Source: Cristatella mucedo (taxonomy: Eukaryota > Bryozoa > Phylactolaemata > Cristatellidae). Taken from it: 64,000 nt of DNA. The notes beneath the pieces were generated by a model. The model had not been told where the DNA came from. It did no database searches and saw only the letters and a program-made list of their open reading frames with translations. Each line of letters starts with the position of its first letter. Positions within the stretch are counted from its first letter, which is position 1. Below are positions 7,108 through 64,000 of this stretch, one piece after another. The stretch lies in the NCBI GenBank assembly GCA_009760855.2, contig WPIO01000001.1, positions 13,957,001-14,021,000 of the forward strand. The letters are read 5' to 3'. A program made the position numbers and the translations under genes.

Positions 7108-23507
<16,400 letters not shown>

Positions 23508-32765: not shown

Positions 32766-34160
32766 AGACCGGTCGGCACGACCTTTATTGTAGCAACTCT
32801 TCCTACGGCACCTGATCGGCACAGGTTGGTGCACCGGGCACCAGTGGCTCAGGCTGCTGTATATTCTGTTCTTGTGTATTAGGAGAAAACAGGGCAATGA
32901 TGCCGGACACTGTCAAAGCCTGTTTGCTGGGCAGGGCAGTGAACGGTTATCTAATCCAAGTGTCGAACCAGAAAGGGGGCACGGTATGTGAAAGTTGGTG
33001 ATAGGCTGACAAGAGATTCTTTGCCTAAGCTACCCGGCGCGAGTTTTGGGTAGAGCCCCAAATACGCTCGCTGCGATTCACTAAGTTAGCTACGATCTTA
33101 ACTCTCCTGAGGATGAGGGTTTTCATCAAATGCACACAATCTAGATGTTCTTTTGCAATTTTTTAGTTACTATCTAAGCGTCTTACCACCTCTTTGACCT
33201 CAAGTTTTTGTCACCACCGACCTATTAAGCGTTTTTTATAGCCCTTTTTGCTCCACTTACCGCAATCCCATAGGTCGGGAACAGGTACGTGTGGTGAATT
33301 ACGGGATCACCACTTGACATACACATTAGCATTGCTGCCTTCTCTAGTATCGCATATACTTGAACTGTCAAGTGCATCTCTCAAACAAGCGATTTATCCT
33401 ACTGAGTATGAATATAGTCTTCTAGTCAATGACACATCTTGCTCAGAGAGTACCTGTTTATTGGATATAATCATTTAATTATACCCCGAGAAGAGAAAAA
33501 CAGCACGTTTGCAAACTTTTTGGGCGTCAGTCTCTAATATTTGCTTGATCAGTGACCAACTTCTATTTACTGTTCGCTGGCATTAAATTTTCTTCCGTTG
33601 AGATGCTTCCGTTCTTAAAATCTCTTAAGCTAGCCTCTGTCAGGACTTGTCCGTTCCTCATGTCAGCAGATAAACAAAGATTTCTGTAAAGGCTTTCCAG
33701 CTTCACGCGATATACGCACAGCTTATCGTTGATATGCGAATGTCATACAATGATCAGCAACTGTTTAAGTCAAGTATCGTCCATCAATGATGCTGAATAA
33801 TCCTGTTTGCGTTTAGGAAGCGAAAGAAGAAAACAAAAGACTCAAGGCAAACAATAGCAAGCAATGACCGAGGATTGCCAATGTTTGCTTTTACAGCCTG
33901 CAGCAGCCCGAGTTGGTAAAGACTGACTAGGACTGCTAGCGAAAGCACTCTCACAATAAAAGATATGCATACTTTTACGAAAATACGCGATGATGTCAGA
34001 TACAGTTTGCTGTATACGTCATCAAACATCCCGGAGCTTTATTTTCCGAAATCATGGACATTTAGGGCAAAATGTATCCAAGCTGAAATCCTGTAAAACA
34101 AGCAGAGCTGAACTCACATTTCAAATTTCACTCCGATAAGTGAAGTATCAGCCGAGTAGG
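32766..34160. other. No recognised feature
   Basis: No further coiled-coil exon could be recognised here. Short open frames on both strands lack splice context and family features. Confidence 0.35.
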
Positions 34161-34320
34161 GTGAGCCGTGATGATGGCACACTAGGTAAGGCGATTACTT
34201 TTCACGGCCTCGGTCTTGAGGCTGTGGGTTCGAATCCTGCGGTGGGCGATCCTTTATCGATGATGCAAGCGATGATGATAGCCATAAAGGCTCTTCTGTC
34301 GCTTTACAAAAGAGCAGTTA
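34161..34320 (+). mobile_element. SINE family A
   Basis: A box TGGCACACTAGG (34175-34186), B box GGTTCGAATCC (34227-34237), then the shared body (agccataaaggctcttctgt). The head carries a 3-bp duplication (gatgatgg) relative to the copy at 9691. Confidence 0.85.
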
Positions 34321-35044: not shown

Positions 35045-35207
35045 CTAGCTGATTTAACAGCCTCTTTTGTTATAGCGGCAGAAGACCTTTACGGCTATCA
35101 CCACTGCTTGCAGCAGCGATAAAGGATCGCCCACAACAGGATTCGAACCCACGACCTCGGCCGTGAAAAGCAACCGCCTTACCTAGTGTGCCATCATGGC
35201 TCACCAA
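35045..35207 (-). mobile_element. SINE family A, minus strand
   Basis: A complete minus-strand copy: the tail (tgatttaacagcctctttt) faces the ATT tail of the LINE relic at 34690-35042, the B box is at 35139-35150 in reverse, and the head ends at ggctcacc. It sits directly beside the LINE tail, suggesting insertion into the A/T-rich end. Confidence 0.85.
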
Positions 35208-37215: not shown

Positions 37216-39105
37216 CCTTAAAAATTTTGGTATTAGTTTACTTTCATTTTAGCAATTGGCAGGATTGTTAAAGGTGTAGCAGCAGTGGAAGGATTGCCAA
37301 AGGAGTGAAACTGTAAAACAGTTAAGTGAGTGGCAGCCAAGCAATAGCGACGAACAGACGATGTTTTCTAATTCGGCAGAAAACATGCCACCAATGTGTT
37401 TTCACAATGGTCGTATATGCTAGTAATATGGCTGCCAATGAACTGAACCAGAGCTGACAAAAACACTACAGCCTAGGCGTAAATGACAGTTTGGGTGAAC
37501 CTGCGGGTAGGGTCCGCTGATCACTTCACACAATACGGCTACGTCACACCCGTGGAGGGCATATACAGCACAGTAACGTGTAAAAAAATGTCATCTTCGA
37601 CAGGTTAACAGTGCAAGTTGCCACGAAATACGTCGGGAGCTAAAGGCGAATGCAATGAAGAATACCCGGCAGTAATGGGGAAAAGGATCGGACAAAATCG
37701 CTAACTCTGGCAAGAGAGTACAGAAAGAGACCTAAGGGAACTAAGATCTTCTCCGTGCGAAATGCAGCGGCGAATCCTTTTCTTACACAAGGGCGAGCTT
37801 ACTGTCTACGAAACGCGCATGAACAATTGGAGACGAGACGCCCTACAACGTAATGGCGCTGCGCACTGGGCGCGAAGTAAGTCTCGGGCCGAACAGCAGT
37901 AGTCTTGGTCAGCAAGGAGTGGAGCGTCATAGATCGCCAAAATTACCGAAAATGGGCATTCACTAAATCGGCCGAGATTCGGAGCGTGGTAGCGAAGATG
38001 AGTCTCTTGCTTTCGGCTGGATGCAGCAGTACTGTTTCTGTCCTCGGAAAATGAAGCTATGTTGCATGGTGTAATAGCACCGTAATTGAAATCCGCTCTT
38101 TGCTATAGAACCACGCAACGCCGCCAGAATGGCAAGCGAATCGCCATCCTTTCCCAGCGATGAGGTCGCAGCGTGGCAGCGCCAGTGGTAGAATGCGGCC
38201 ATGCTTTCCCGGATGTGAGATCGGCAGATCAGCAGCGCGTCCAATGATTAGATTTTCCCAGATACTTCCCTACACTAGGCGTATAGTTTGCGCTACCGTG
38301 GGCAACTTCCTGTCAAATGCAGTCCCAATAATATATATCTCATTTTAGAAAAGAAATATACATATTCTTAAAAATAAGCAGAATGTATGCCCTGCTAGAG
38401 CAGAGGTACTTTCAGACCATGGGCGGGTGCAATTTGGACACTCGTATAAACCGTCGGCTGATCGTCCGGCTATATAAAGGAGCTTGCTTCTATTAAGTGT
38501 GGTTGCGTGTGTCCTGGAGGCACAAGAACATCGATCGCTATCGTAGCTGATCTGTTCCCTCAGTGTCCCCTCAAAAACACACTCAACTAGCGTCGTGCCT
38601 CCCGTTGCCATTAGTCGCACGGTCGAGGCCGTCAAAATTGTCTGCACTTTGCAGGCGTCTGGGTTTACCTAGTATCCTGGCTTCCCTGTAGCTCTCGCAC
38701 GAGTCCTAATTAGTTGGAAGTTAGTGATATCTCACGGCCTTTCTGTCGCAACCAGTAGGCACTGCGTGTAGCGGTCTGCCATCAACTTTTTACGTTACGT
38801 TGGTTTTTTCGTTTCAACTGCCTCAAAATTGGCTTCGGAAACTTCGATGAGCAAGCTAGGGATGTCGATACAAATTCTTCTTCTATATAACATGAGCACG
38901 TTATCTCGAAGCACCGATATGAGAGCTACCGGTGCAATATTTGATTATTCAAGTGATAATCATATTCGCCGGTCAAAGAATAACGAACCTAAGCAGCTTT
39001 TGGATACAAAATATACATGTAAATGGCAGTATAAATGGCAGTCTGATTGGTATAGTGCCAAACACAAACAAAAGAATGTGGTAGTACTAATATGAAGGAA
39101 GATGT
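37216..39105. other. No recognised feature
   Basis: I saw no repeat shared with other parts of the window. Frames of 88 to 100 codons at 37963, 38345 and 38829 have no family features. Confidence 0.35.
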
Positions 39106-40990: not shown

Positions 40991-43900
40991 TCACTGTGTC
41001 TGGTGGCTGGCGCTGAGTTTCAGCCGCTGGAGGTAGCCCAAGTACAGTAAGAATTGCAAGACAAACAAAGCGAAGAGGCCGCTCGCCAAAGTGACGATCG
41101 ACGTCACGGGCTGGCTCCAGTCGAGCACGCCCGGATAGAGAATGTGGTTGACCTTGTCGAACGTCCAGTACACTCCGTTAAAAGCAGAATAGAGCAAAGC
41201 GTAAGCGAGCGGATAGACGAAGTGCATCAGGCGCACCGGCAGTCGACTGAGGCTTAGTTCCAGCAAGGTGGTGACCGTGTTGACGGCATGCATCGAGTAG
41301 TCGGTGAGACTTTGCATAAAGCTTGTTTGAGGCTCGTACAGCATTGCGAAGTAAATTACTGTGATGCAGGGGCTTGATGAAGCTACGACATCGTACAGCA
41401 GCCAATTCAGCTTCATGAACCACGGCAGCTGCTCAATGTTGTCATGTCGACGGGCGTCTTGGGCCTGTGCTACCGTGTCGAGGTGGTCGGCCGCTCCTTG
41501 CGACGCCGACCTTTCCATTACTGTGGCTCCTGGCGCCACGACTGATACCTCTGCATTGGCAGTGTTGACCTCTGGGTGACGCTTAGTGCCCAGCAGCAGT
41601 ACAATGACTGCAGACAGTGTCAGATGCAAGGTAAGCAAGGCATAAGTAAGCACGGTGAGGTAGACAAGGATGAACCTGCCAAGGTAGTCGTAGGGATCGC
41701 TGCCAAAATTATAGATTAGAATGAATAAGTAGTAGACGGCCACAACAATTCGGTACGTGAAGAACGCACCGCGGCAGCTCCACTGGAATAAAGGGAGAGA
41801 AGTGATCTCAGGAAAGAGCACAGCTTAAATTTTGGGGCGAGCCCCCTAACTTATTGACCTTGTACAGTGCATCATCAAGGTCAAATCCCAAATAAAGTCA
41901 CTGCTTTAAGATAATTGTAGGCGTTAATAGCTACGGATTTAGAAGTTTTATCGCGTCGGCAATGACCAATGTGAAATACCTTAGGTAATTAGAAGATAGG
42001 TGCTCATTTTCATCCGCTTGTGGTTCGGTTAGAACGTGCTATCTGTGTGAAGCTGCACCGTGTCGGTCGCAACAGATCACCAACGTAACGCCTATTTACC
42101 GGGTCTAGCAGGGTCTCACTATTGAGCGTTAGATTGCTGCTAGCTGGTTGAATATCCTACATACCTCCAGTGTATGTAAACATCGTGACATTGCATGATA
42201 AACTGTATATAAAAACCTGGAATACAGCCAAGTTCTTACGGTGGAACTAATACCAATAATTTTACGATAAGAATATTTGTGCATGGTTTTACCTGGATCC
42301 GTTGCCTAGTTTTAGCCTTACAGCAACAAAGCAGCTCTCAAGTTTTCCTATCCTATGCATAAAAGTATTTGAGATGTGTTAAAACCGGACTTTATGATAC
42401 AACGCAACTCTAGCTTCAAATATTAGTAACATTGATTGAACCGAGCTTGATCCCAGAAATACCTGGCCGTCAGCTCAGCGGGAACTGACGCTGACTATCA
42501 AACCATAAATATTGCCTGACGTGGCAGAATTTCATGCAACGCACAATAAAAATAGTGCTTCATTGGTCAAAATATAGGTTGATCAAGAGGATACTACCTG
42601 AGTGAAAGATTAAATCAGCCTATAATAACAGAAATAACTAGAACGAATGCAGAATTTTTCTCCTACTTCGATATTCTTTTGGGAGACTATTTTCCGGTAG
42701 ATTTAGTAACCGCCTGAGAGAGAATTTAATGCCGACAATCAGAACAGCAGACCACATAGTTTGGCAGTTTAATGCAAAAGACCCAGCTGGTTAGCTCAAC
42801 ATCGCCTGTTAAATTGTGCGACAGTTGTGAGTTCATTCATTAAAAATTACTCGGCTGCGAAAATTAGGCACTTAGATGGCTGCTTGTGAAGTTTTAGAGA
42901 AAAATGTCTATAAAAAGCAGAAGCTTGCAGATACTCTCAAATGCTATCACCTAGATACGTGCGAGCGTAGAAAATGCCGCCTTTAGATGAACTATTGAAT
43001 TCAATTGATCCGATGCCTTCAGCACCAACGAAAATTTGTCAAAATTTAGTTATATAGCTATATACTTGCCAGCCATGCATTATATCTCTTGTCTCGTCGA
43101 TTTTGCTTTATTGGGGCATGCCTGGAGCAAGTGGTAATAACCATGCCTATCTGTTTTTTTGCCGTTGTTAGCGGCGACAATTGTTCATGGATTTTGAGTT
43201 AATATAATATAAAAAGCTCTTGGGGCAGAACAGAACAAGCACGGTCTTTGAAGCTATCGGCAGAAGACAATTTCTAAGATGTACCCATTAGTTTTAAAAC
43301 AGGAACTGCTGAATATCGAAAAGCCGCTTATTGGCTTCTATTGGGCAAACGTGTTTGCCGTGCCTGCATTTTGCTTGTAACAAATAAGCTGACGGAAATA
43401 AGTGGATGTTCCGCTGCAGAATTTCAAAGCACACTCAGACTTTGACGTCTTTGGTGTAGAGTCGAAGATCTTTTACGCAACAGCATGAATTGAGAAGTAT
43501 AACTGATTAACGCCAAAGAAATATCGTTGTGTTCAGCACAGTGGCAACAGTGCGAGGAAAGCACACGGTCTTCTACTGCCCGAAATTCTCGGGTGGAGTG
43601 GCTAAGCAGCTAGGCTTTATAGGCTGTGGGCCAATGTTCGCTGACCGAAGCCGTAGCAACACAGAGCTAGAAGCATCGGAGGCTAGGAATATGTGAACTA
43701 TCTCGGACTCAAAAGAGCGTGTTTTGTTATTAAAAGCGGCGGCTTTCCATGAGCTGTACGTTGTGCTAAAAGGTGAATGCTACAATTTCACTTGCGCCCA
43801 GAACTCAACCAGCCTTAGGCTCGGCAATTCTATACTTGCCCCATTATACCATACCTGGTGTCTGCAGATCACCCTTCCAAAGAGATATTTAAGAGAGAGT

Positions 43901-46900
43901 GCAAACAGGAACATAGCGTGTTTGCAGTAAGTACCTGGTAGCTCTCTGGCGCTTACTATACATCGAAGGCTGGAACGGTGCAGCCAAATGTTACAGACAC
44001 TGGCAGATTTAGCGAACTTGATAATGCACTTGATAAAGCGCCCTCCGAGAACTTAATCTCTCTCTAGGCGCTTTACATTTGCTGCAAAGGGAAATGCAAT
44101 TGAATGGTGAGTAAAATAATGCTTGATAAACAAAGAAAATAAATAATATGGTTAGGGGTGACATGCACAGGGTCAGCATGCGAATGTGGTTAGTGGCAGC
44201 ATGCACAGTGTCAGCACGCATAAGCACATCAAGGACGAACCACAGGGACCCACTAAATGCTGTCCTAAATAGGTGTTTTTAAATTCTTTTTAAATGTGGT
44301 CAGGTCAGGGGATGTTCTGACGCAGGTCGGGAGGGAGTTCCAGGCTTTGGGAGCATACGAACTAAATGCCCGGTCTCCAAAGGATTTGAGGTTTATACGG
44401 GGTATTTGTAGACTGTTGGATTGCAAAAAGCAGGTGGTACGATGCTTGGCCTTGTGGGGGAGTATATCTGAGAGATAGGCTGGAGCCAAAGAATGAAGTG
44501 ACCTAAAAGTGAGCGACAAAACCTAAAGTCAATCCGTTGCTTGACTCGTAGCCAGTGCAGGTCGGCGAGAAGTGGAGTAATGTGGCAACTGCGACGCTCA
44601 CGACAGACAAGCCTAGCTGCAGAGTTTTGCACCAGCTGCAATCGCCTGATCGCACATGCTGGTAGGCCAGTAAGCAGTGAGTTGCAGAAGTCGAGACGAG
44701 ATGTCACGAATGCATGGACCAACTTAGACGTGGTATCCTTATCTAAACAAGCCCGAATTTTAGCAATGTTATGAAGCTGAAAATAGGCAGATTTAACTGT
44801 GGAGCTATTATGGTCGTCTAACGAGAGGTCGCTTTGGAATATGACACCTAGATTTCGAGCTGATTCAACAGGAGATATGCTGGCAGAGCCAATTTTGAGC
44901 GCCAGCCTTTCCAATCTCTGAATCACATTGGGTTTGCCCATAACTAGTAAGTTAGTTTTATCATCGTTTAGTTTTAGAAAATTTGCTGCCATCCATGTGC
45001 GGATACCATCAATGCATGCAGCATGTGAGTTGAGAGAATTTGAGGTGCTCGAAGGCTGGGAGAAATCAAAGCAAAGGTACAACTGAGTGTCATCCGCATA
45101 GAAGTGAAAGCCTAGATTGTGCTTGGTAATCACATCAGCGAGAGGGAGAGTATAAACCGTGAAAAGAACCGGACCTAGCATGGAGCCCTGAGGTACGCCA
45201 TATTTCAGAGGTACATCAGATGATCGAAGTGTCTTGAATAAAAATGGCCTGCCTGGATGAGCAATTCATCTGAGTCTGATAGGAATATCTCAGAACGTGA
45301 CAATAGGTTTGGATGAATCTACTAGAGATATTTTATAGCTATATATCTTATACCTAAGCGATCGAGTCACGCCTTCGCTCCAATTCGTTCGTAAATTAAC
45401 CATCGTAGCTCAAGAGCTGCAGCATTTTCAACCTCCTCTTGCCCTCACTTTCTCTCACGGCAATAATTTTAAACGTGCTGTCTCGGCTTCGGAACTAACT
45501 AACGCTCTTATGCCAAAAATATTGCACTCGTAACGGTACTGTTTTTCACCGATGCACAAATTGTATGATTAAAAAGATGAGACAGATGCCGTAACGAGCT
45601 GCAGCAAACTTATATTCCCACGAAGCTCACAGCCTACGGGTAGGCGACCGGTCAGCCCTGCACCCACGTTGCGTCTCCCTTATCTCCTGGGTCTCCTGCC
45701 CCACATCCTAGAATCAGTTCGATCCAGCCCCTACTTCTCAGAAACAGCCCATCGCGGGTGGGCTTACGTGGCCCAGCTGGGCGCAGCCCCGTACCTAAAC
45801 CGGCGGTAAATAGGCGGGTTAATGAGCCGCAGCTGGGTACAGAACTTTACCCAAGCCACAAATAGGTGTCGCGGCCAATTACCCCAACCGACTCACTCGA
45901 TTCCCTTACATGCTGCATCCACGACATTCGCCTACTGATGGCTGCTAACTTCTTGAAGCTGAATGGTGATAAGACCAATCAATAAACTAGCTGTGGCAAA
46001 CTTGTGTCACCTAAAATTGGGAAGACCTAACCCCTCGGGTTAGTTTGGATAGCATCGCTCCAGTGGCGTCTGCCCATAGCCTAGGCGTACTATTCCAGAA
46101 CAACTTGTAATTGGATGAGCAAATTTTCTCAGACATCAAGCCGGCCAACTTTCAGTTAAGTCAGGGCCTGCTTACATACGAGTACGACAGTTTAACTAGT
46201 TCTCGAATTTTTCACATCGCGCCTACCTTGATGCAATTTCGTGGCTTGGCTTCTTTATACACTGCTTGAACTCCTGCACCAGTTTTAGCGACATCGTGTC
46301 ATCAGATCCTGTATGGAAAAATAATGGCTTGCTCCATTCCTACCTTTAAAGACCGTTGGCGACAGAAGCTTTTGCTTTGCATGTCCTAGACTGTTGAACT
46401 CCCTTTTCACAACTCCTAACGAAACGAAATCTTCTCTCGTGCTGCCGACTGTATCACAACCTTTCCAGCCGTCCCAGGCCACTAATTTCGTGCTACTCAC
46501 TTCTTTGACTGCCTCTCGACTCAGTAATGCTTCTCACTTACTCTTTTTTGGGTGAACTTAAGCCTGTTAGCTGCTACTGCGTATCAAAAGCCGCTTGGGC
46601 TGCGAGTGCCTATTGAAAACACTCCGGCGTGACATCCACTTAGTCCTCGTTACTTCGTCGAGTAACGGACGGAGATACAATACATTAAATAACACGACCA
46701 AATATAGTAGGTGTCAACGGTCGTCGTCACCACCTCATCCGGCTCTAACATAAATTATAACCGATAATTCTTCATACACATTTTCGCCCCTGTCATTGTA
46801 GCTGTCGTGTCTTCATCTTCATATCTGAAAGCCATCGCAACAACGAGCTGGGCTTCAATGCATGCCCAGAACCCCGGAAGTTCATGTCAACAGCACTTCA

Positions 46901-49900
46901 CTTGGCTAGAGCCTAGCCAGCGCTTTTTTAATGAGCGCCCTCTCTCTCAACGGAAATCGTGAACGATCTCAAAATAGAATGTGATTAGTACGAACAACAC
47001 AAGGAGGAGCTGACCTCCCTGCTCCAGCGACTGCTACTTCGGCTTATCGGGTCCATTTTCTGGTATCGTCTCCGCCATATAGTCTTGTCTGTCTTTCATT
47101 TAGCTAGACAGTTTTCGCAATACAATGAACCACGTCTAGCAGAGCTCTTAGAGCCCCGCACCCGCTAGCGGACTTGCAAAACTCAATGGAACAATTAAAT
47201 TTCTGCCAATCGGAACAAGAAGTCCCATCTGTTTGCTCTTCCGACCGAGCGACGTTTTTTGACGTGCATTTACACGAAGAGCACAGCGCTGCATTCACCA
47301 AGTTTCAAAGTCAACGGAATAATTTCAGAAGAAAGTAAGTAGACATTACGATATTACGATACACACTCGAGGGAGATTCCTCAGGTAGACGAAAACTTAA
47401 AGCTGATTCATGGAAATACAAAACTCGCGATATAAGCGAGCGATCATCTCCGTCATTTTAAAACGTATGCATACGACAAACAGCCATGTTAGTGCATTGA
47501 ACATCGTTGCAGAAACAAGAGTCATTAATGGGCAAGTAATGAGAAAATGCAAAAGTCACATCACTTGTCGAACAGAAAGCATCAACAGCACGATTACAGA
47601 GTAGAACAGCTATTTGTCCAGCATCAGTGCAGCAGTCGATAACCTGAAAAGTTTGCACGGTAGCAGTCTCGAAGCAAAAAACAGCTGCTACAGTCTTTAC
47701 AGTGGCTGCAGGAAGAAAGGACCGGCATAGGAAGGTCGGCGCCATACTGCTCGTCAGTTCTGCTCGTCAATTTGCCCGATTTTGGTTATGCACCGCTCCA
47801 AAGTTTTCATATTTTTAGCAGCGAGTCGCTCTGAATTCCGAAGATGAACCAGCGACCTCAGCTTTCATGCATTTAATACTCTGGTCAGTAAGTAGTGACT
47901 TAATCCGGCCAATATAGAAGGCCGCGTTTCAGGTAAAACGTCTCACCGATGCAGTTTGTCGCGAGAAATGAGACTGGCATAGGACCAATAGTAAGGATTC
48001 TCAGCGATAATCCAACGCTTTCGGCACTAAAGTTACAAACGCATTGTGGCGGCTTCTGCATTTTCTCCCTTTAGTTCGCAAACGCAGCGCTCGTGGCGGC
48101 GCTAGTCCTTGCTGACGCGCGTAAAACGCCAGCGAAGCCTGAGCTTTTGTTCACGGTCAGAGGCTTGCTTGCGCCGCCGTACAAATATACCCACGCACGC
48201 TTGCCGACCGATGGCGATGGACCAAAGGCAGCAATGAAGAGCGCTCGCACCTTAATATAGCAGGTCCATATCCATAGCGTAGAGCACTGTATTGGACGGC
48301 CACGCACAGGTGTCCAGGTGTCCAGCGCCAGCCGCAGTGTACAGCTCACAGCGCGACATCGGAGCCCAACTCAACTGCCTGACTCGAATGCTAGGACACA
48401 GCCGGGCTGCCTGTTAAATGGCTTGTGCGTTTGTGCCGCTTAACCGTAGAGTACGGTATGGCCTGCTCCACTTATAATCCAGGAACCGCAAATATCTGGG
48501 CCGTCATAATCTGGCTGATAGCACGCTAACGTTTAAATGAATTGGCTGCCCCTTCCGTCACCTAAATACATGTACATTCGTCAGCCTATATAGTTTTAAA
48601 TTACTTACGTATGTCCCGTAAGGGAATTTTTCGCTGATTCGCTAGCCAGCACTGAACGACAGAAAGAGACCTTGGCCAATATACATATATCAAATGTGAA
48701 TGTTATGATGTACGCTCATTATTGATAAGGAAAAATTGCATTTTTAATTATTAGAATAATGTTGAAAAATTGTTTTCAATTTTCCACCTATAAAGTTTGG
48801 ATACATTAACAAAAGAATGACAAGATTGTACCTGCTTACACTGTGCCTGCTGCTTGCGGATGTTACCACTAATCATTCGGTAATGCTTTCTATACAGCAT
48901 CTGTAAAGTGTCTAGAAAGAGATTACGTTATTTGAGGGCGCTATAAAAGTTTATTATTATTATTATTCGTATATTATTAGTATTATTAGATTTCCTGCTA
49001 TCTGGTTAAGTTACACGTACCTCCCTACCAGGTAGTGGGTTTGAGTTCTGTGATTGGCGATGCTTCGTTGCCCTCAGCAAGGGGGGGCTGATGGCCGCTA
49101 AGGCCCTTCTACGGCTATATAGTGGAGGCTTTTGAATTAGCCGAACTTATAAATTTCACTTTCACTTGAGACCACGAGCTGGGTCATGAGATGAAGCTAC
49201 TTTTCCGCTGGTATCACTTGAATTGCCGCTGAAACTCTCAAGTATCCACCTAGTCTTCTTGGCTTTATCAAGTTACCGATGGACGCATTTATTTATACAC
49301 ATAGATACTTAAACATTACGAAGACTCGGTGAATATGCGCAATATTTACACTGACGACTTTCCTCTAGTGAACTGTTGATTTTGATTTGCTCTTGAAGCG
49401 CTCACTTTGCTGTTGTAAGCACATCTGGTGTTGTAGAGCAAAGGCGGAAAGACGTGACCGATTCTGGTAAATAATACGAAGCAAGTCTGCCAGGAGGCAT
49501 CTGCGCTGACCTGCTAAGAATGAGTGCCTACACCTGTGCCAGGAGAAAATAATGGCATGAAAGAGTTACCCGTCGATCTTCGTCATGTCTCTTCAGAACC
49601 TATCCTGGAAGGTCCATCGAATAGGTTAGGAAACCATACTCACTCAGAAGATGTATTCGAAGTACGAATCACCTTCATTTTCAAAAGCATCTTTTTATCA
49701 GCGGCTTCGAAAACGATCTTGAAGTCAGTATTGCATTAAAATTAGCAAGATGTAATTGCATGCGAAGGACATGAACGAGAACTCAGTTAGCCATATTGTG
49801 CTAAGACGTCACTACTTCAGTCCCATTTCAGAAAAGGAAAATTTTTGTGATCAACGATGTGCGGGCGCTGAGTTTTTCTGCCACCTAGTTAACGTCTGCG

Positions 49901-50244
49901 AACACTTTTCAAATTGCAGCCGCATAAGGAGTTTGACCGTTCATTCGAATAGTCGTCGCGAGGATTCGAAGTGGCACCACGTTCACTTACATCCGGCACT
50001 TTTCTCAAGGCAGAGAGGTTCGGGACACTCGCGTCGCCTCAAGAGAGCGAGTGCCGCTGCTGACCTGACCGATGCTCGCGCGAGCGATGCCCGCGCCGCC
50101 AGCTTCCGCTCGTTCGCGCGAAAGTAGACTGCACGGTGGCAAGTAACGGACCTGGCCTTGGGTGAAGTCCTGGTGACGAGCGTCGCTGAAACCGAGCTTG
50201 CGGCACTGGAACTCGGCCCGCAGCGTGGTACAGGACAAGGCCAT
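40991..50244 (-). CDS. Rolling-stone-like multipass membrane protein, copy 1
   Basis: Two exons, 50152-50244 (31 codons, ending CAG|GTCCGT) and 40991-41782 (acceptor TATTCCAG), join in phase 0 into 294 residues. The protein starts M-A-L-S-C-T-T-L-R-A-E-F; the R-A-E-F-x-C-R-x-x-G-F-S and D-F-T-Q-G-Q|W-S-C-R segments resemble the N-terminus of the rolling stone family. About six hydrophobic segments follow, for example around 35-56, 68-95, 150-175, 195-235 and 250-285, with a polar loop at about 100-145. The founding Drosophila member is known for a role in myoblast fusion; the role here is unknown. I chose the second of two in-frame ATGs (the other is at 50250) because the tandem copy starts there. 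The 8.4-kb intron holds two LINE insertions. An internal tract of exon 2 is almost identical to copy 2. Confidence 0.88.
41034..41658. repeat. Near-identical tract shared with 55161-55785
   Basis: By direct comparison, 625 bp differ at 4 positions (near 41070, 41268, 41285 and 41638). Both ends are sharp: the next 124 to 127 bp of coding sequence toward the acceptor differ at about 26 positions, and the C-terminal codons differ as well. Confidence 0.85.
41783..44019. other. Intron 1 of rolling-stone-like copy 1, left part
   Basis: AT-rich sequence with no repeat or coding region recognised. Confidence 0.4.
44020..45300 (-). mobile_element. LINE family 1, longest copy, with reverse transcriptase catalytic motif
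   Basis: The best coding copy of family 1. Reading back from the (short) tail at 44020, one frame spans 44393-45181 and continues upstream to about 45265 as K-T-L-R-S-S-D-V-P-L-K-Y-G-V-P-Q-G-S, the conserved stretch before the catalytic motif. It holds F-H-F-Y-A-D-D-T-Q-L (the YADD catalytic box), then F-L-K-L-N-D-D-K-T and the R-N-L-G-V-I-F thumb region. A frameshift near 44400 moves the C-terminal part into the 44265-44519 frame. It is 5' truncated, so endonuclease and ORF1 are absent. By these motifs it belongs to the CR1/L2 group. It lies within intron 1 of rolling-stone-like copy 1 in the same orientation. Confidence 0.9.
45600..45900. other. GC-rich intronic stretch of unknown type
   Basis: More C/G-rich than its neighbours, with repeated ggcgggttaatgagccgcag-like segments. 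No match elsewhere in the window was found. Confidence 0.25.
45905..46690 (+). mobile_element. LINE relic, family 2 3' end with degraded coding region
   Basis: Begins with a degraded reverse transcriptase piece (A-A-N-F-L-K-L-N-G-D-K-T in one frame at about 45940) and an L-G-V-L-F-Q-N-N remnant. It then continues with family 2 landmarks (ttcgtggcttggcttcttta, gaccgttggcgacagaagct) to the tail at gagtaacggacggagataca. Frames are broken throughout. The first half resembles family 1, so the copy may be mosaic. Confidence 0.65.
46691..48819. other. Intron 1 of rolling-stone-like copy 1, right part
   Basis: No gene was recognised. A short dispersed element lies at 48050-48115. A 95-codon minus frame (47458-47745) and a 92-codon minus frame (48071-48349) have no family features. 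Confidence 0.35.
48050..48115 (+). repeat. Short dispersed element, second copy
   Basis: Shares ggcggcttctgca, gcaaacgcagcgctcgt and ggcggcgctagtccttgctg with the minus strand of 24962-25058. Confidence 0.55.
48820..48968 (+). mobile_element. LINE family 1, tail fragment with (ATT)n
   Basis: Includes gtaaagtgtctagaaagaga and ttatttgagggcgctataaa, followed by TTATTATTATTATT. It contains no coding sequence. Confidence 0.75.
49000..49145 (+). mobile_element. SINE family A, diverged
   Basis: A B-box-like gtgggtttgagttctgtg, then gatgcttcgttgccctcagc, ccgctaaggcccttctacgg and a tail tatagtggaggcttttgaat follow the SINE A order, but with many changes. Confidence 0.55.
49290..49750. repeat. Intron segment conserved with 58600-59050
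   Basis: About 450 bp in intron 1, roughly 0.4 kb inside exon 1, that match the equivalent intron position in copy 2. Shared runs include gatttgctcttgaagcgctc, gtagagcaaaggcg and cctgtgccaggagaaaat, at roughly 80 percent identity by eye. Confidence 0.7.
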
Positions 50245-50700
50245 CCTCATCGGACGCTCGCGACTTGCAGAGGGCCGCCGCCCTCGCCGGCTCTACCGCG
50301 ATCGGACTTGTCACTGCCGCGTGATGCGGCCGAATTTGCCGAACCGCAAAGCTCTTGGCTGCGCGGCTCGTCGCGTAGACTCGACCGCCGCCGCCGCCGC
50401 TGCGAACAGCCTGCCGGAATAGAGCCGCCGCCGTCTGCTGCCGCCTCGCATCTAGCTTCGCGTCGCGCTCGTGCTTAAAGACGCGTCTTCGCCGCTCGCG
50501 TTCCTTCCAGCCAGTTGGAGTGCGTTTAAGCTATTCGTTTTCTTTCGCTCAGCAGCCCGTCCGTCGTCACAAAAACCGCCCGCTGAGGAGTCGTCGGCGG
50601 TACTTAATTTATCTCCCACGTCAGCCTCCTCCGAAGGATGTGGTTATTACCAGGAGATGACGTAACTAGGCCGCAAACGCGGCGCTCGTAGCGGTGCTCT
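49980..50700 (-). promoter_or_regulatory. CpG-rich region around exon 1 of rolling-stone-like copy 1
   Basis: CpG density rises sharply across exon 1 and the bases upstream of it on the minus strand. A comparable region surrounds exon 1 of copy 2. It is a likely promoter; no core motif stands out. Confidence 0.45.
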
Positions 50701-50715
50701 ATGCCGACGCGATAC
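50672..50715 (+). repeat. Short dispersed element, partial copy
   Basis: cgcaaacgcggcgctcgtag followed by cggtgct and gccgacgcgat. It matches the core of the elements at 48050 and 24962 (minus). Confidence 0.45.
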
Positions 50716-51310
50716 CAATAGCGGCGTAGTCCTCCGTCTTGGAGCACGGCTAGCGACTTGTACGTGCAGTACCAAAGCAGGTGCTAGCGGTGCTAGACAC
50801 ACGTTTGTACGAACGTAAGTAAGTGTGCCTAGCACCGCTAGTCGGGCTTAAGGAAGGCGCAAGGCCAAAAAGCATTCATAATCAAAATTTAAAATTGAAT
50901 TGAAAGCTCAACATAATTTCAATTTAATTTCAAATAAGAAATAATGCCCGTCAGCAGTGCCAGCTCAACAGCTAAGTCAGCAGACACTAGGGCCTACTTT
51001 TTAAAAACAATGGTGGAGTTTTCGGAGATTTTGGTCTAGCTTAGTAATTATTATTTCCTTATTCAATCATAGTTAATATAAGTAAATTGCTTCTATAATA
51101 CCTCCTGCACACGACCATTAAGTCTTTTCGCAAGAATTAACGCATTTAGAGGAAAGAGCGTATCCAGTCAGTTTGCCAAGCCATCAGAACAGGGAAAGAT
51201 AATACAGGACATCAAACTGAAAGTGACTTTCGAACACATCCACTTGAGAACAATTTTAGCTCTTTCTTTAAAAACTCCTATCACTTCGGTAGATTTGTCT
51301 AAGCACTCAG
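50716..51310. other. No recognised feature
   Basis: AT-rich spacer upstream of rolling-stone-like copy 1. No repeat or coding region was seen. Confidence 0.35.
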
Positions 51311-51319
51311 CGGTCAATA

Positions 51320-51500
51320 CGCCACGTCAGATTCAAACACGCGGGCGTCTTTTGCGACGCCCGAATTTAAGTTCCTGCAGCAGCAGCAGCAGCAAGCGCG
51401 CTCGCTGCCGGGTCGCTGTCGCATTGCTTTACTCTCTCGGAAAAGTCTCGGTCAAGCAACTGCAAAGCACTTGCCCCTTCTGCAGGCACTCGGGATCGTA
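51320..51500 (+). repeat. Landmark Y, copy 1 (5' flank of first rolling-stone-like gene)
   Basis: Shares gattcaaac, then agcaagcgcgctcgctgccg, tctcggtca and caactgcaaagcacttgc with 63820-64000. In both places it lies upstream of a rolling-stone-like exon 1. Confidence 0.5.
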
Positions 51501-51599
51501 GCCCAGCCTTGCTGACGGAAAATGGTGCTCTCGGAGTAGAAAATCGAGAGCTGATTTAATGCAGTTTTATTTCACTTCGCGGAGTTATTTGCATCTTAG

Positions 51600-52090
51600 A
51601 CTAATAGTAAGATGCTCGCTCTTCACAGCTAAGGTCGCGGGTTCGAGTCCCGCAGCGAGCGATCTTTCGTTGCCCGCTGCGAGCGGCGGTGATGTGGGGG
51701 CTCGCGCGCGGCGGCGGCGAGATGAAGAGAATGATGAACAGTGACTGGCGGTGCCCTCACAGACGAGTGGTGGTGGCGACGAGTGCTATATTAATACTCA
51801 GGCGGACGAGCGTACATACTGGTGGTCGAAGCCATCGTTTGCGCTGCTCCGGAGCACGTGGCGTGAAGAGGGGGAGTATAGTGTGCGTACAGGCCGACGC
51901 ACAAGCAAGAAGCGCAAATACAAGTCAAGGATACGGTCATGGGCCGGCATGGAGCGCGCCCATAGGGCGGGCGAAACTTCGGCTGGGGCGGAATCGCGTG
52001 ATGACGACGACACGCTCACAGCGATAGCAATTGAGGCTCGTTTGCCGCCTTATAAAAATGAGAATGTGAAATCAGCTAGAATTTAAATTT
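51600..52090 (+). mobile_element. SINE family A copy split by about 320 bp
   Basis: The head has a clear B box (GGTTCGAGTCC, 51640-51650) and runs through gatctttcgttgcccgctgc to about 51705. The expected tail (gaggctcgtttgccgcctta, ataaaaatgagaatgtgaaa) appears only at about 52030-52090. The sequence between is GC-rich and carries a 112-codon frame without family features. Confidence 0.5.
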
Positions 52091-52104
52091 TTTAAGGTCT
52101 ACTT

Positions 52105-52285
52105 TTATAGCGCACTGGCGGTTCGGCCCGGGGGTTAAGGAACTGGCCTTTAATGAAATAGGTCATGGTGTTCACCTTTATGCACGAGGTCGAGGGCTCT
52201 AGCCCCGTGACATTGTGAAGCGCCTGGAAAGAGATTCAGCTCTCTTAGGGCTCTATACAAAAGAATTAGACTGATTTTTATTTAT
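52105..52285 (+). mobile_element. SINE family B (tRNA-like head, LINE family 1 tail)
   Basis: The best copy. An A-box-like TTCGGCCCGGGGGTTAAGG and a B-box-like GAGGGCTCTAGCCCC are followed by gtgaagcgcctggaaagaga, then tcagctctcttagggctcta and an AT-rich end. The last 50 bp copy the family 1 3' stem-loop. Confidence 0.65.
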
Positions 52286-52891
52286 TTATTTTACATGCAG
52301 CCTCAACGAGTCGATAGTGCAGAGTGATCTAACTAACCGTCGGCTGCTAGTCGGCAGCTCTATGAGCCGCGCTCCTTTGGTAAGTAAATTTAAAGGGTTG
52401 CCGAATGGTGTAGGGCCGTAATTTAGATCCCCATATTTTGATGTCAAATCGTGCTGTGGTTCACCTGCGTGTACACCGCGAAATGAACAGCTTGGCTTTG
52501 CCTGAACTACCTTCAGACTGAAATTGAGCTTGCGGCCGCTGGATATGACTTGGAATATATCGTGTGACCTTTCATTTCGGAGTGATAAATATTTATTTAT
52601 TGATCCTGATTAGGCGGCGATCATGAGCTGATGTCGTGAATTGGATATGTACCAGGACTAGCCACACTAAGATTCTTGACGTACTTGGATACGTGAACGT
52701 AAATGGAAATTTGAAATATCCGTAGTGTCTGAGCACTCGCTGTATCTTGTGAGTAATTATTTTAAACTAGTTAAAACTGCTCGCACGACTTGTTAGCGTC
52801 TTGCAGGGATCTGAAACAGGATGTTTGCATTGATTATTAAGCCGATTCGCTTTGCCTTTGCTTTGTGATATTTGGTCGTGTAGATAGCTGG

Positions 52892-52975
52892 CGTTTGCTT
52901 GTCGCACCCCGGTAACATTAAGCTTCCTCCAAGTAACTTCAATAAGAGCAGCAGCTCATCATGTCAACCTACTGC
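52892..52975 (+). repeat. Landmark X, copy 2 (3' flank of second rolling-stone-like gene)
   Basis: The partner of 39765-39840. Confidence 0.5.
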
Positions 52976-53689
52976 TGGAACTTAAATTCGGGCATCGCTA
53001 AATACGCCCGCGTTTTGAATCCGAGGCGGCGTATCGGCCTGAATTCGAGTGCACTTCGTGAAAGTGGCTTTGGCGTGGTGCTTTGATCTGCTGCTCATAC
53101 AGATAAGGTTACTTCATTGGATGTGCGAATACTTCCGTCATCCCACAGTATCGCGGTACCTCGTCCGGCATGCAATGCGCAGGTCCATACATAGCACTTT
53201 TCTGCAATGGCACTCCAAGAGTTTCTCTACTTGTCAGTGAGGCAGGCATAAGTCACCCATCACTGGTCGTCGACCGCAGGTAATACTCTAGAATTGGGAC
53301 TAAGCGACAAGAATACTTTGACCGAGTTATTCTGCTAGCAGCTTCTTCGATGATGGCGAACTAGCTTGGTGTGAGCTTGAATATGTATGCCCGCCATGTT
53401 TCAAGGCATTTGATCTGGATATCTGTCTGCTCTTGCGTTCTTGCTTGTAGGGTGCAGCACAGAACAGAGGCACAAAGTAGAGTGCCTTTGTGGGCACGCA
53501 ATAATGCATGCACAGTGCTTTTTATGGCAACGCTTTCTTTCAATTATAACTGTAAAATATTTGCATACCCGTAATAGTGGTACACATCTTTCTGCGAACT
53601 ATACATGGTTTGGATAGAAATCCTGTAAGCTTATTATTAATAATAAATAGCATTCCAATTTCACCCAGTGTAAGCAGGTGAAGCATGAT
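52976..53689. other. No recognised feature
   Basis: Spacer between landmark X and the old LINE relic. No coding similarity was seen. Confidence 0.35.
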
Positions 53690-54300
53690 TCACACAGTCG
53701 GCTCAAAGACTGTGAGAAACAGGTAGGCTTTTGCTTGGTTTAAATAATGCCATACCCGGGATGTCGCGGTATTAGCCGGTGGTGAGTCCCACGCTTTGGA
53801 TGCTTCGGACGTGTGCTCACGGCTTCCAGAGTTTTAGATTGATTACATGAACAGCCTAATGGTCCGAGTCTGAAGAACAGAGAGAACAAGGGGAAGCCTG
53901 ATCAATTATTTACAGAGTCATTAACCGAAGGTGGAAGTGAGAGATCCAAAAGCAAGTGACATAATCCCTGAAGTCATTTGCTCGCTCCTGGATGGAGAGC
54001 CAATGCAGTCGAAAAGACATAGTGTAAAGTTGTTGTTGCGGTGCTAACGAAAGTAAGGCCTAGTTGCCGAGTTGTATACCATCTCCAAACCTCTTATCGC
54101 ACTTTCATGAAGACCTGAATGTGGAGAGTTGCAAAAGTATTAACGGGATTTAACGAATGCATGTACTAACTTGGCTGTGGAACCATTATCCATGAGCCCT
54201 GTAGTTTTGCAATGTTATATAGCTGAAAGTAGATCGATTTGACTATGAAGCTGGTGTGGCCATCCAGAGAAAATTCATTTTGCAAAGTAGGTCGATCATT
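53690..54300 (-). mobile_element. LINE family 1-like relic, strongly decayed
   Basis: The order of minus-strand landmarks follows 44100-44830 (cttccagagttttag, ggagagccaatgcag, cgaatgcatgtactaacttg, gcaatgttatatagctgaaa), but with many indels and no open frame. It lies in the 3' flank of rolling-stone-like copy 2. Confidence 0.6.
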
Positions 54301-54925
54301 TTAGCGACATTTACCAGTCTCTGCAAAACAACTGCACGACTTCAAAATGTACATAGATGCAGCTCTATTGCAATTCTACGGCAATTGCACGCCAGTCAAA
54401 GCAAATAATACTATCACGTATGCGAGTGCTGTAGGCCATCAATTGACAGGTCTGCATAGGTACCTAATGATGTCAAAGGTTGGCTCTACCTATCTCGGAC
54501 CTCTACTGTAGCTGCTACTGCTCTCTCAAAACGCATCTTCAGATCATTTTTCCATCTCCACTAAGGGCGATCGTTTATGTTTAACACCACAGGGCCTCTT
54601 CTGTTATAGCCTCCAGGAAGTGTTTGGGATTACCGATAAGGTGTTTCGAAGCGGGTGAACCAATATGGCTCCAGATTCAACTTTGGTGGCCTTGAATTAT
54701 CCGCACCAGGATAGCATGGCGGATCACTCTTTCTTGGTCGTTACTATAATAGCCCCTTGGGGCGTCGAGTGCTATATTCTGTAAATATAGCTGAAGGTTC
54801 AGCCGAAGATCCTTGATAATATTAATTTGCAAAAGAGGCAAGCAACGAGCATGAACATATTTGCTGCCAGATAAGGTGCTGCATACTCACATCTTCTTGG
54901 GTTCTTGATTACTATAAACTGCCAT

Positions 54926-54931
54926 TTTATT
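54926..54931 (-). terminator. Probable polyadenylation signal of the second rolling-stone-like gene
   Basis: AATAAA on the minus strand about 130 bp past the stop, with flanks matching the site at 40777-40782. Confidence 0.5.
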
Positions 54932-55060
54932 TCACTGAACCCTGTAGTAAGGACTCTTGATAAATTTTTCATAATGGTGTTCACGTCATTCTTTACTAGA
55001 GAATCACACCGCCCGCAATGAAATTTAGTACTGAAGAGTCAATCAAAAAATTAGATCCTA

Positions 55061-58000
55061 TTAAATTAGTTCCTCTTGTTTTACTAGTGCTATGTCTTGT
55101 TTGCTCACCACCTTATCCGGCCATGCCAGGTAGTGGGTACCGAGCTTCAGCCTCTGGATGTAGCCCAAGTACAGTAAGAATTGCAAGACAAACAAAACGA
55201 AGAGGCCGCTCGCCAAAGTGACGATCGACGTCACGGGCTGGCTCCAGTCGAGCACGCCCGGATAGAGAATGTGGTTGACCTTGTCGAACGTCCAGTACAC
55301 TCCGTTAAAAGCAGAATAGAGCAAAGCGTAAGCGAGCGGATAGACGAAGTGCATCAGGCGCACCGGCAGTCGACTGAGGCTTAGTTCCAGCAAGATGGTG
55401 ACCGTGTTGACAGCATGCATCGAGTAGTCGGTGAGACTTTGCATAAAGCTTGTTTGAGGCTCGTACAGCATTGCGAAGTAAATTACTGTGATGCAGGGGC
55501 TTGATGAAGCTACGACATCGTACAGCAGCCAATTCAGCTTCATGAACCACGGCAGCTGCTCAATGTTGTCATGTCGACGGGCGTCTTGGGCCTGTGCTAC
55601 CGTGTCGAGGTGGTCGGCCGCTCCTTGCGACGCCGACCTTTCCATTACTGTGGCTCCTGGCGCCACGACTGATACCTCTGCATTGGCAGTGTTGACCTCT
55701 GGGTGACGCTTAGTGCCCAGCAGCAGTACAATGACTGCAGACAGTGTCAGATGCAAGGTAAGCAGGGCATAAGTAAGCACGGTGATGTAGACAAGAATGT
55801 ACCTGTGAAAGCGGTCGTAGGGATCGCTGGCAAGGCTATAGATCAGAATGAATAAGTAGTAGACTGCCGAGATCGTCCGGTACGCGACGAATGCAGCACG
55901 GCAGCTCCACTGGAAGAAAAAGGTGAGTTATCTCATCCCAGAGCACGGCTAAAAATGTTCAGGAGTTGCATATATAGTTGACGTTGCAGAGTGCATGCAT
56001 TTCACATAAGTTCGCTGCCTTAAGATCGCCATCCTTGCCTCTAGTCATGAGTTCGGAATTATTTTCGAATAAAAGTGTTTCTTGCCAGACCAAAACAATA
56101 CTAGAGGCAATTTAATGGCACACGCTGGTTTCATTCATTTCCTTCATTTAATGGCACATTATGGTTCGATTTAGATTGTGCTAAACGGGTGGGCCAAGAG
56201 CATGCTTAACTGCTTGCCTTTCAAGCTGCACAACGACAGTGGCACCAGTCGTTGTGCCGGAGACCCACTCAGCATCGTTTCGCAGGGGACCCAGGCTAGC
56301 AATGCCTAACTTTGGTTCGGATTGAAAAGGAGGTTCATGCATTTCTGGCATCCCATCTATACTTCTGTAACTCGGTACTTGCACGCGTTCCAGCCTGAGC
56401 AATACAGCGCTCACATTTGGTGCATAACTCTGCAGCCTAGCTTGTTTTTCATGAAAGTCGCAATTGCCACATTACACCACTTCTCGGCGACTTTCACTGG
56501 CTTCTCATCAAGCTCCGTATTGACTTCAAAGGTTTCATTGCTGTCAGGTTTCGCTAGTACCACGCACTCTCCTGATTCAAGTGGTTAAGGTAGTTCTGTC
56601 TCTAACCAATCTCAAATACTTTAGAGACCACACCTTCAGTTCGCACGTTAACAACGCAATGAGTTCACTCCTGACTGACATCGCAACATCCCTTAATCTA
56701 AAAATATTAAATAAAGCTACAAATTCACTTGATAATCACAACATTTGATATGTCCAAGATAAACTTCTTTGTGTGGTGCTGAGTATTTAAATTGCGTATG
56801 TTATCGCTAACCCTTGACATGTTTCCTGTCTTGCATATTTAAAGTACCTAGAAAGAGAGCAGTATAAATATCTTTTATTTATATTTTAAATTAATACAGC
56901 ATTTTGCAACTTTGGGATATTTTAGGAGGACGAGTATCTTATGGGTTTTAATAGATAACTGGGAGTACTTAACATCCACAACTGAACTAAACTAGGTTAC
57001 ATATTTTTTTCAAGAGTATTAAGCGTTACTTTGCAATATCTATCTATCTCGTAATAAGCGTTACTTTGCAATATCTATCTCAAAGGATATATAATGGTCA
57101 TCATCTGCCACAAACTTTTTTTGTGACCAGTCATACATTTGAAATTTACGTTTTCAATAAAAACCGGACGGATTCGCCGTGATGAATGTTTTGGATCACA
57201 TTTAATCGGATCAAGCATTAAATAAGCCAGAACTAATAACACGTGTTTATACTTAAGTAATACAAAAACGACCACGCAATAGTTCGAAGTGAGTACTTTC
57301 CCGAGGTTTTGTTTTCAATATACAATACGTTTATGAATTAGCACTAACCTGTAGTCTTCGACGATGTTCTCATTCTGTTACCCTCGGTTTCGCTGTTTAC
57401 GAAATGTACTACATTCCTAAATTCTGTAGGCAGCGCTTGCATTGCTCCTCCGAGTAAGCACCAGTGTTATCTTTGGAATTTATCAAGATGAACATCAAGA
57501 ATAAAGACAACCTGCAGCCCATTGTGCAGTAGTTCCTAAGCATAGTCTTAACACCCTCCACATACTTTCCATCTTAAAAGTGAAACAAAAATTCATTCTT
57601 TTCCGGTAGTTGTCAGCAAGCTTTCCGTAAGCCACTCTTTGTCAGTGTGATGTTTCAGGTTCTCCTGAAGGCGAAGCTTCTGAATAAAATCAATTAACTT
57701 CCTTCGGTAGCTAAAACTGGACGCCCAATTCGTGCACTCGTCGACGTTCGTTCACATCGCGGCACCTCCGAGCAAGAACTTATAAATGACTGATTCCACT
57801 CAAACGTTAAATATTACCACCAATGGTGAGAACTTACGGTTTTATAATCATTTAGCTTAAGGAAGTTTACTGACATCCAGAACATAGATCTTTTCTTGTG
57901 ATGCATTCCTTTGAACAATCGCCCCAGCTCATTCTGAAGGCATGATCGATGTCGGCAAAGCAGTACGGTGTCGTCGGCAGAGTAGTGACAACCGTCGCTG

Positions 58001-59681
58001 CGAACCTGAATAATACTCTCAATTGGTGCAGTAGAGAAGGTGAACAGCAACGGATCGAGAGCAAACCTTCGCGTAAGCAAGCAGGTGCTGCAGACCTGCT
58101 TGCTTAGACTTGGCCGCCACCCGATGACAGAGGGACTAGAGACGTGGCCCGACAGATACGATTCGCCTCCTGCTTGCTGCAGCGGACATAAAATAATCGC
58201 CTGCTGCAAGACTCGAGCCGCCAATCTGGGTGATGAAGTGCCAAGCACCTTACCGCCGGTGCCCTTGAATACCCACTAAAACTCAAAGATAGCTTATGGC
58301 GCACGGTTTTTTCCGGCGGTCCTAGACTGCGGATCCTACTTCTACGGTTCTGAGAAACGACGATCTTTCTTCTCCTACCCTTCCTTTGATCCTACCCTTC
58401 CTTTCCTCCTACCCTTCCTTTGATCCTACCCTTCCTTTCTTTCTACCCTTCCTTTGATCCTACCCTTCCTTTCCGCCCATAGTGCGCGCATACTTTTAGG
58501 CCTCCTACTACCCTTTCGAACTCAACTATTTCAGTACTGTTGCATGCGACGAAGTCCGTTGGCAACCGCGGGATAATCGAGTGAAGGACGAACGAATGAA
58601 TTTATGTAGATAGGTACTTTAAACACTACGTAGACTCGAATACTACTTAGTCTACGAAGAATCGGTAAATACACGTAATATTGACACTGAAGATTTTCTT
58701 GTAGCAAACTGCTGGGATCGATTTGCTCTTGAAGCGCTCACTTTGCTATCGGTAAGCACATCTGGTGCTGTAGAGCAAAGGCGAAAAGGCGAGACAGACT
58801 CTGGGAAATAATACGAAGCGAGTCTGCCTGGAGGCAGCTTCACTGACCTGCGAGGAAGTAGTGCCTAGACCGGTGCCAGGAGAAAATATTGGTACGAAAG
58901 GGTTACCCATCACTCTTCGTCTCTTCAGAAACTATTACGAAAGGTCCGTCGAAAAGGTTAGGAAGCAATACTTACTCGGAAGATGTTCAAGAAGCACGAA
59001 TCACCTTATTTTCAAAAGTGTCACTGCATCAGTGACTTGAAAATTGGTTGTGGAAGCAGCATTGAATAAATGACTCCACCGCGACATCAGCGCCGTGCTA
59101 TTTTGTACTTGAAAAGAAGCAATTTTACCCGCATGGGCAGGACAGCGGTTGCTGGGTAAACTTGTCCCACAAACTTGTTCGAGGAGCAAAGTTAGTAGGC
59201 TTCAGACTAGGTCGCACGTATACCATGCAACGCTGCTTTCAGGAATCGCTGCTTCGATACGACCCCAGCTATGCAGAGTCTAGAAATGACAGCGATTCGA
59301 GCTCGGAGCGTTTCTTCCGGGCGTGTACGCTCTCCGGGCGCTTTCAAATCAGGGCCGCCGAAGAAGTTCAATCGTTCATTTGACTCGAGACCGCGAGAGC
59401 GCATTGTAGTCGCATCATTTACGTCTAGCTACGCCTGCGGTGCAGCAGGCTTCGAAGCGCAGGCGCCGTCTCTGCATCGTACCGAGCGCGGCTGCCGATC
59501 CGACCGGTCGTACTAGATGGCCCCGTGGCGCGCTAGCGTCCCGCATGGAACGCGAATGCAGTCGACGACGCGGTGGCAGGTTACGGACCTGGCATTGGAC
59601 GAACTCCTGACGATGAGCGTCGCTGAAGCCGAAGCGACGGCACCGGAACTCGGCCCGCAGCGACCTGCACGACAGGGCCAT
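55061..59681 (-). CDS. Rolling-stone-like multipass membrane protein, copy 2
   Basis: Two exons, 59589-59681 (31 codons, ending CAG|GTCCGT) and 55061-55909 (acceptor CTTCCAG), join in phase 0 into 313 residues. It begins M-A-L-S-C-R-S-L-R-A-E-F, and its start has A at -3 and G at +4. F-V-Q-C-Q|W-S-C-R crosses the splice. The membrane segments are placed as in copy 1. The first 45 residues of exon 2 have diverged (A-A-F-V-A-Y-R-T-I-S here against G-A-F-F-T-Y-R-I-V-V in copy 1), the middle is almost identical, and the C-terminus differs: copy 2 has a longer polar tail ending K-Q-E-E-L-I. The 3.7-kb intron lacks the LINE insertions seen in copy 1. As both frames are intact with good splice sites, both copies look functional. 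Confidence 0.88.
55161..55785. repeat. Near-identical tract shared with 41034-41658
   Basis: The partner of the 625-bp tract in copy 1; the offset is 14127 bp. Confidence 0.85.
55910..56389. other. Intron 1 of rolling-stone-like copy 2, left part
   Basis: Nothing recognised. The intron sequence next to the acceptor does not match copy 1 beyond the first 10 bases. Confidence 0.4.
56390..56890 (+). mobile_element. LINE family 1 relic, 3' part
   Basis: Degraded. It has attgccacattacaccacttc, then ttgacttcaaaggtttc, aatctcaaatactttagaga, and a tail with gtacctagaaagagag and a broken ATT end. Confidence 0.6.
57021..57080. repeat. 35-bp tandem duplication
   Basis: The run aagcgttactttgcaatatc followed by tatct occurs at 57021 and again at 57056. 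Confidence 0.85.
57840..58090 (-). mobile_element. LINE reverse transcriptase fragment
   Basis: On the minus strand the frame reads L-D-P-L-L-F-T-F-S-T-A-P-I, then H-Y-S-A-D-D-T-V-L-L, an eroded YADD catalytic box, and V-N-F-L-K-L-N-D-Y-K-T. It is a different lineage from family 1 and could be the upstream part of family 2. Both ends are truncated. It lies in intron 1 of rolling-stone-like copy 2. Confidence 0.7.
58165..58265 (-). mobile_element. tRNA-like SINE head fragment
   Basis: On the minus strand it has an A-box-like gcggtaaggtgcttgg and a B-box-like ggctcgagtcttgcagcagg, then a body with similarity to SINE A (gcgattattttatgtccgct). Confidence 0.5.
58370..58475. repeat. 17-bp minisatellite with alternating unit ends
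   Basis: Six copies or so of tcctacccttccttt, alternately followed by ga and by cc or ct, so that a two-unit higher-order repeat is visible. Confidence 0.85.
58600..59050. repeat. Intron segment conserved with 49290-49750
   Basis: The partner of the conserved intron segment in copy 1. The offset here is about 9.3 kb, less than the 14.1 kb of the exon 2 tract, so intron length has changed between the copies. Confidence 0.7.
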
Positions 59682-63819: not shown

Positions 63820-64000
63820 GCCGGATTCAAACGCCTACGCGTCGCTAGCAGCGCCTGCATTTAAATGCCAGCAACAACAAGCGCGCTCGCTGCCGGTTCG
63901 TTGCCTGATTCGCTGCGTTCTCGCGGAAGAGCCTCGGTCCACCAATTGCAAAGCGCTTGCTCTTCCGGCTGGCAACGCACGTTGCAGCCCTTGGCGAGCG
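63820..64000 (+). repeat. Landmark Y, copy 2 (5' flank of second rolling-stone-like gene)
   Basis: The partner of 51320-51500, cut by the window edge. Confidence 0.5.

Follow-up and report, generated by a model that had tools for sequence, protein, structure and literature searches.

How did two neighbouring genes of the bryozoan Cristatella mucedo come to be almost letter-for-letter alike through the middle of one exon while differing on both sides of it? We analysed a window of 64,000 nucleotides lying on a 24.8-Mb contig of a 572-Mb assembly (688 contigs). A preliminary description of this DNA had proposed that the two genes diverged and that part of exon 2 was later homogenised by gene conversion. 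The proposal withstood a set of likelihood, synonymous-site and paralog comparisons, and recent interlocus gene conversion in the middle of exon 2 is the best explanation of the data, with a probability of roughly 0.9.

Organization and family assignment of the gene pair

Two rolling-stone (Rost, PF21534) genes stand head-to-tail on the minus strand, A at 50244–40991 and B at 59681–55061. Gene A comprises exon 1 (50152–50244, 31 codons) and exon 2 (40991–41782, phase 0, including the stop codon), and gene B comprises exon 1 (59589–59681, likewise 31 codons and conserved with that of A) and exon 2 (55061–55909, including the stop codon), all on the minus strand. The exon joins were inferred from reading frame and splice sites, which are alike in the two genes (donor CCAG/GTCCGT, acceptor TTCCAG/TGG), giving open frames of 294 codons (294 aa) in A and 313 codons (313 aa) in B. 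Intron 1 measures 8.4 kb in A and 3.7 kb in B.

Both proteins exceed the curated PF21534 cut-off of 26.8 bits, at 53.0 and 55.3 bits, and each exon 2 carries a match, which bears out the rolling-stone-like identity first assigned to the pair. The Drosophila rolling stone gene has a role in myoblast fusion; family membership is here a profile match, and that role belongs to the Drosophila gene. A 19-residue Kyte–Doolittle window revealed several strongly hydrophobic segments in the Rost proteins, and a structure model built from a single sequence was too poor for use (pLDDT 51, pTM 0.30).

A near-identical block with sharp edges

The preliminary description had counted four differences among 625 positions between 41034–41658 and 55161–55785, and this count proved exact. 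The maximum-likelihood block is one base longer, spanning 41033–41658 in A and 55160–55785 in B (minus strand), and is identical at 622 of 626 positions, so that 4/626 differ inside it versus 49/235 over the remainder of the 861 nt compared. Toward the acceptor, the start of exon 2, which encodes the first hydrophobic segment and the first loop (41659–41782 in A, 55786–55909 in B, minus strand), was found to be as diverged as previously described, with 26 differences in the adjoining 124 bp (98/124 identical). On the other side, three differences fall within 18 bp, after which the tails of A and B part. The anatomy of the proteins fits the earlier statement that the first transmembrane segment and the tail were left free to differ, the strongest hydrophobic window before the block being residues 36–54; the edges may be set by selection or simply by a loss of homology.

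A model with two boundaries was favoured over a uniform rate by 54.6 lnL units, the largest value in 200 shuffles being 11.3. The longest identical run measures 352 bp, a length reached in none of 100,000 shuffles (maximum 205). The edges are sharp, with 2-lnL support intervals of 41632–41668 and 41033–41041; one lies within coding sequence, and the other just before homology fades near the stop codon of A. Because these permutation tests count every site alike, the argument is carried by the synonymous and paralog comparisons given below. All four nucleotide differences in the block are transitions, compared with 29/46 in the 5' flank; this pattern fits young mutations, although four sites could show it by chance and prove little. 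Third-position GC content is 0.67 in the block versus 0.75–0.77 in the 5' part of the coding sequence, so the GC bias that is a frequent, but not required, hallmark of conversion is absent.

Synonymous and four-fold degenerate sites

Synonymous divergence is not uniform along exon 2; uniformity had been named beforehand as an outcome that would refute the conversion hypothesis. Between A and B, dS is 0.45 in exon 1 and 0.39 in codons 32–73 (dN 0.20), falls to 0.013 in codons 74–280, which make up the block, and reaches 0.54 in the last seven comparable codons, a value drawn from only some 5 sites; the block value is thus about 3% of that outside. Synonymous differences number 2 over 152.8 sites within the block (95% interval of the proportion 0.0016–0.046) and 17.5 over 53.7 sites outside; diverging as fast as the outside, the block would hold about 50. 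Four-fold sites, counted with the edge codons 73 and 281 left out, differ at 3/8 in exon 1, 5/9 before the block, 1/112 within it and 0/2 after it (8/19 outside in total). The two genes show no difference between codons 80 and 197.

A distant paralog as a control for constraint

A third Rost-like gene lies at a distance of about 8 Mb on the same contig (5,995,369–5,996,142); it matches at 44% over query residues 1–260 and has its exon-2 boundary (TTTCAG/TGG) at the same place as A and B. Residue identity between A and this paralog is 23/42 over codons 32–73, where A and B agree at 28/42, and 86/203 over the whole block, where A and B agree at 201/203. Within the block, the second transmembrane segment (TM2, residues 74–98) is identical to the paralog at 17/25 positions (25/25 between A and B), the loop (99–147) at 8/45 (45/45), in an alignment that omits four of 49 residues as gapped and that the strong divergence of the loop makes uncertain, and the remainder (148–280) at 61/133 (131/133). 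At the nucleotide level, A matches the paralog at 71/123 bases (58%) in codons 32–72 and at 304/612 (50%) in codons 73–280. Fisher tests of block versus flank gave p = 2e-10 for A against B and p = 0.17 for A against the paralog, the latter tending to a more conserved flank. Measured against the paralog, the entire block shows no greater constraint than the start of exon 2, its TM2 piece being somewhat more conserved than the flank. The earlier argument that purifying selection alone would not suffice is therefore upheld: silent sites are spared together with the rest (four-fold differences 1/112 versus 8/19), in a block that carries no extra constraint against the distant paralog.

The paralog was also used to polarize the differences. 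Of the 14 residues that differ in codons 32–73, it shares 5 with A and 1 with B, and matches neither at the remaining 8; of the 26 differing bases before the block, 14 match A, 7 match B and 5 match neither. At most, these counts hint at a more derived flank in B than in A, and they do not indicate the donor of the block. Inside the block the four differences split evenly, the paralog carrying A's base at two of them and B's base at the other two.

Old divergence and homology outside the block

The C-terminal codons, introns and flanks had also been described as differing, and this holds throughout. Exon 1 is identical at 73/93 positions (20/93 differ), the end of the intron at 68/105 aligned bases and the 3' flank at 80/135 aligned bases with 146 gap columns. 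Pairs of 200-bp sequences aligned likewise in 20 random draws had a mean identity of 0.45 and a maximum of 0.55, and the intron adjoining exon 1 (236/456, 52%) and the bases before the start codon (29/56) are at this random level.

Two further pieces of homology lie beyond the exons. An island in intron 1, at 49317–49687 in A and 58653–59018 in B, is identical at 305 of 365 aligned positions (about 84%), well in excess of the 52% in the intron that separates it from exon 1, and a piece of about 91 bp upstream of the genes, at 51384–51474 for A and 63869–63960 for B, at 73 of 91; the latter lies 1.1 kb from A and 4.2 kb from B. Homology is thus found on both sides, in exon 1, the intron island, the 3' end and the upstream piece, so the whole gene was duplicated, and outside the block the A/B pair looks like an old duplication. 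The intron of A holds a long repeat (44021–44901) that is present elsewhere in the window too, and the intron of B holds a distant, inverted piece of the same repeat family at 56332–56535.

The intron island was matched at these two places only in a genome search, and a transposon was rejected on that ground. It carries a donor-like GTRAGTAT after TCTGA in A and TCCGA in B, and no shared open frame was seen in it by eye. The island is a candidate regulatory element or unrecognised exon, and the upstream piece a candidate promoter or 5' exon.

Searches for further copies

No third close copy or haplotig copy of the block was found in the 572-Mb assembly, A and B being the two candidates that the DNA search scored. 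The block as a mobile element was likewise considered and rejected, as it occupies two places only. A protein search of the assembly scored 11 candidates and matched A, B, the 44% paralog and two weaker places, and a Pfam search scored nine candidates and matched four places, all above the cut-off. Such searches score the best candidates only, and copies absent from the assembly are invisible to them. Weaker members of the Rost family lie on two other contigs (C204 and C288), that on C288 being recovered by the Pfam search as well. No additional tandem copy turned up in the sequence flanking the window, searched over 20 kb on its left and 30 kb on its right (best E 0.50). Among 2108 candidates of a protein collection no homolog reached E 0.01; viral contigs yielded none, and on bacterial and archaeal contigs 0/10 pattern matches were confirmed, an animal gene not being expected in either.

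Other features of the window

A full-model match to 7SK RNA at 38501–38787 on the plus strand (42.5 bits, gathering score 35; E 7.5e-8 for the window) has two GAUC motifs near its 5' end and probably represents a real 7SK gene. Pieces of a LINE-like element lie at 44396–45265 (minus strand) and 13168–13857 (plus strand), the former containing YADD, which we take to be the reverse-transcriptase motif, and the repeat copies at 13196–14078 and 44021–44901 are about 94% alike. A tRNA-Lys(ttt) call at 35129–35200 (minus strand) lies inside a repeat family (9686–9871, 11470–11646, 34160–34320 and 35045–35206) which makes a tRNA-derived SINE more probable than a gene.

Interlocus gene conversion and competing explanations

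Under gene conversion, an old tandem duplication would have produced two whole Rost genes, which would then have diverged throughout, to a dS of about 0.4, with introns of unequal length and different tails. The two blocks are separated by 14.1 kb on one chromosome, and homologous recombination between the copies would later have carried most of exon 2 from gene to gene without exchange of the flanks, and the repair would have been conversion rather than a double crossover. From the low synonymous divergence of the block, we infer that the event was recent. Copies that are 20% apart recombine poorly, so repeated earlier conversions would have kept the block alike; conversion has probably occurred more than once, the present state being the last of several such events.

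An assembly or polishing artefact, in which the middle of one gene was built from reads of its neighbour and the identity is absent from the animal, is unlikely, though it is the most serious of the competing explanations. Short-read polishing is known to go wrong on near-identical paralogs, and the assembled sequence alone is our basis; against this, the contig is 24.8 Mb long with no N in the window, diverged sequence stands directly beside both edges, four differences are retained within the block and neither a third nor a haplotig copy was found. A polisher would, moreover, be expected to confuse the copies only when they are already nearly alike. Purifying selection or nucleotide-level constraint (RNA structure, an overlapping code) without any exchange is the least credible alternative and can practically be dismissed. 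The block does encode most of the Rost domain match, and TM2, its first piece, matches the distant paralog at 17/25 residues, but synonymous and four-fold sites are almost unchanged as well, and the block as a whole is less conserved to the paralog than the flank. Purifying selection also fails because the least constrained stretch, the loop, is identical between A and B, silent sites included.

Two further routes to the same mosaic are each very improbable. The genes might be a recent duplication in which the ends of one were replaced from a more diverged relative, the block being the original part; this would leave the same pattern, and a comparison of two sequences does not tell which way the exchange went. 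Such a history would need several separate replacements, since exon 1, the start of exon 2, the intron island, the tail and the upstream piece are all anciently diverged; the assembly searches revealed no close relative to serve as donor of the ends, and the introns are of unequal length, with repeats placed and oriented differently. Alternatively, the block might have been copied through mRNA by cDNA-mediated repair rather than from gene to gene, as it lies wholly inside one exon and no intron can betray the template. This route requires reverse transcription, to which nothing positive points, and exon 1 was not carried along. Gene conversion is supported over these alternatives by the non-uniform dS, by a block that is not specially constrained relative to the paralog and by the lack of a third close copy in the assembly searches.

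Known parallels and significance

Gene conversion is a well-known, common process, encountered here in a new gene pair. In the Tigriopus californicus duplicates GOT1p1 and GOT1p2, near-identical and strongly diverged stretches occur within one coding region and are ascribed to conversion (PMC3728101). Both cases are duplicate pairs with a mosaic coding region, the copepod genes having islands of divergence; that work drew on four populations and GENECONV, whereas the present one rests on one genome, a pair, a block and a distant-paralog control. In Caenorhabditis, section 4.1 of the source gives surviving conversion tracts that aggregate to 50–200 nt, with a tabled range of 12–2,958 (PMC3966223), and the paralogs there are alike in that tracts of tens to thousands of bases survive between duplicates. 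The 626-bp block is long beside the 50–200 nt of that section, falls within its tabled range and may sum several events (PMC3966223). Judged by titles and the beginnings of abstracts, no paper retrieved on rolling stone and gene conversion treats the subject; PMC11285510 and PMC3654919, in which both terms are present, concern by the same measure an ant supergene and butterfly oogenesis.

The locus offers an unusually clean single-genome case, in which a distant paralog separates conversion from selection without a sister species, because the most weakly constrained loop is letter-for-letter identical between old duplicates. Dating the duplication by the middle of exon 2 would underestimate its age roughly thirtyfold (dS 0.013 versus about 0.4), and short reads will probably be assigned to the wrong member of the pair. 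A more speculative extension, which we consider rather improbable, is that recurrent conversion between A and B keeps the protein core in step, while selection keeps the two genes different in the C-terminal tail and in the first membrane segment and its loop. If so, A and B would represent two specificities built on one shared, continually homogenised core.
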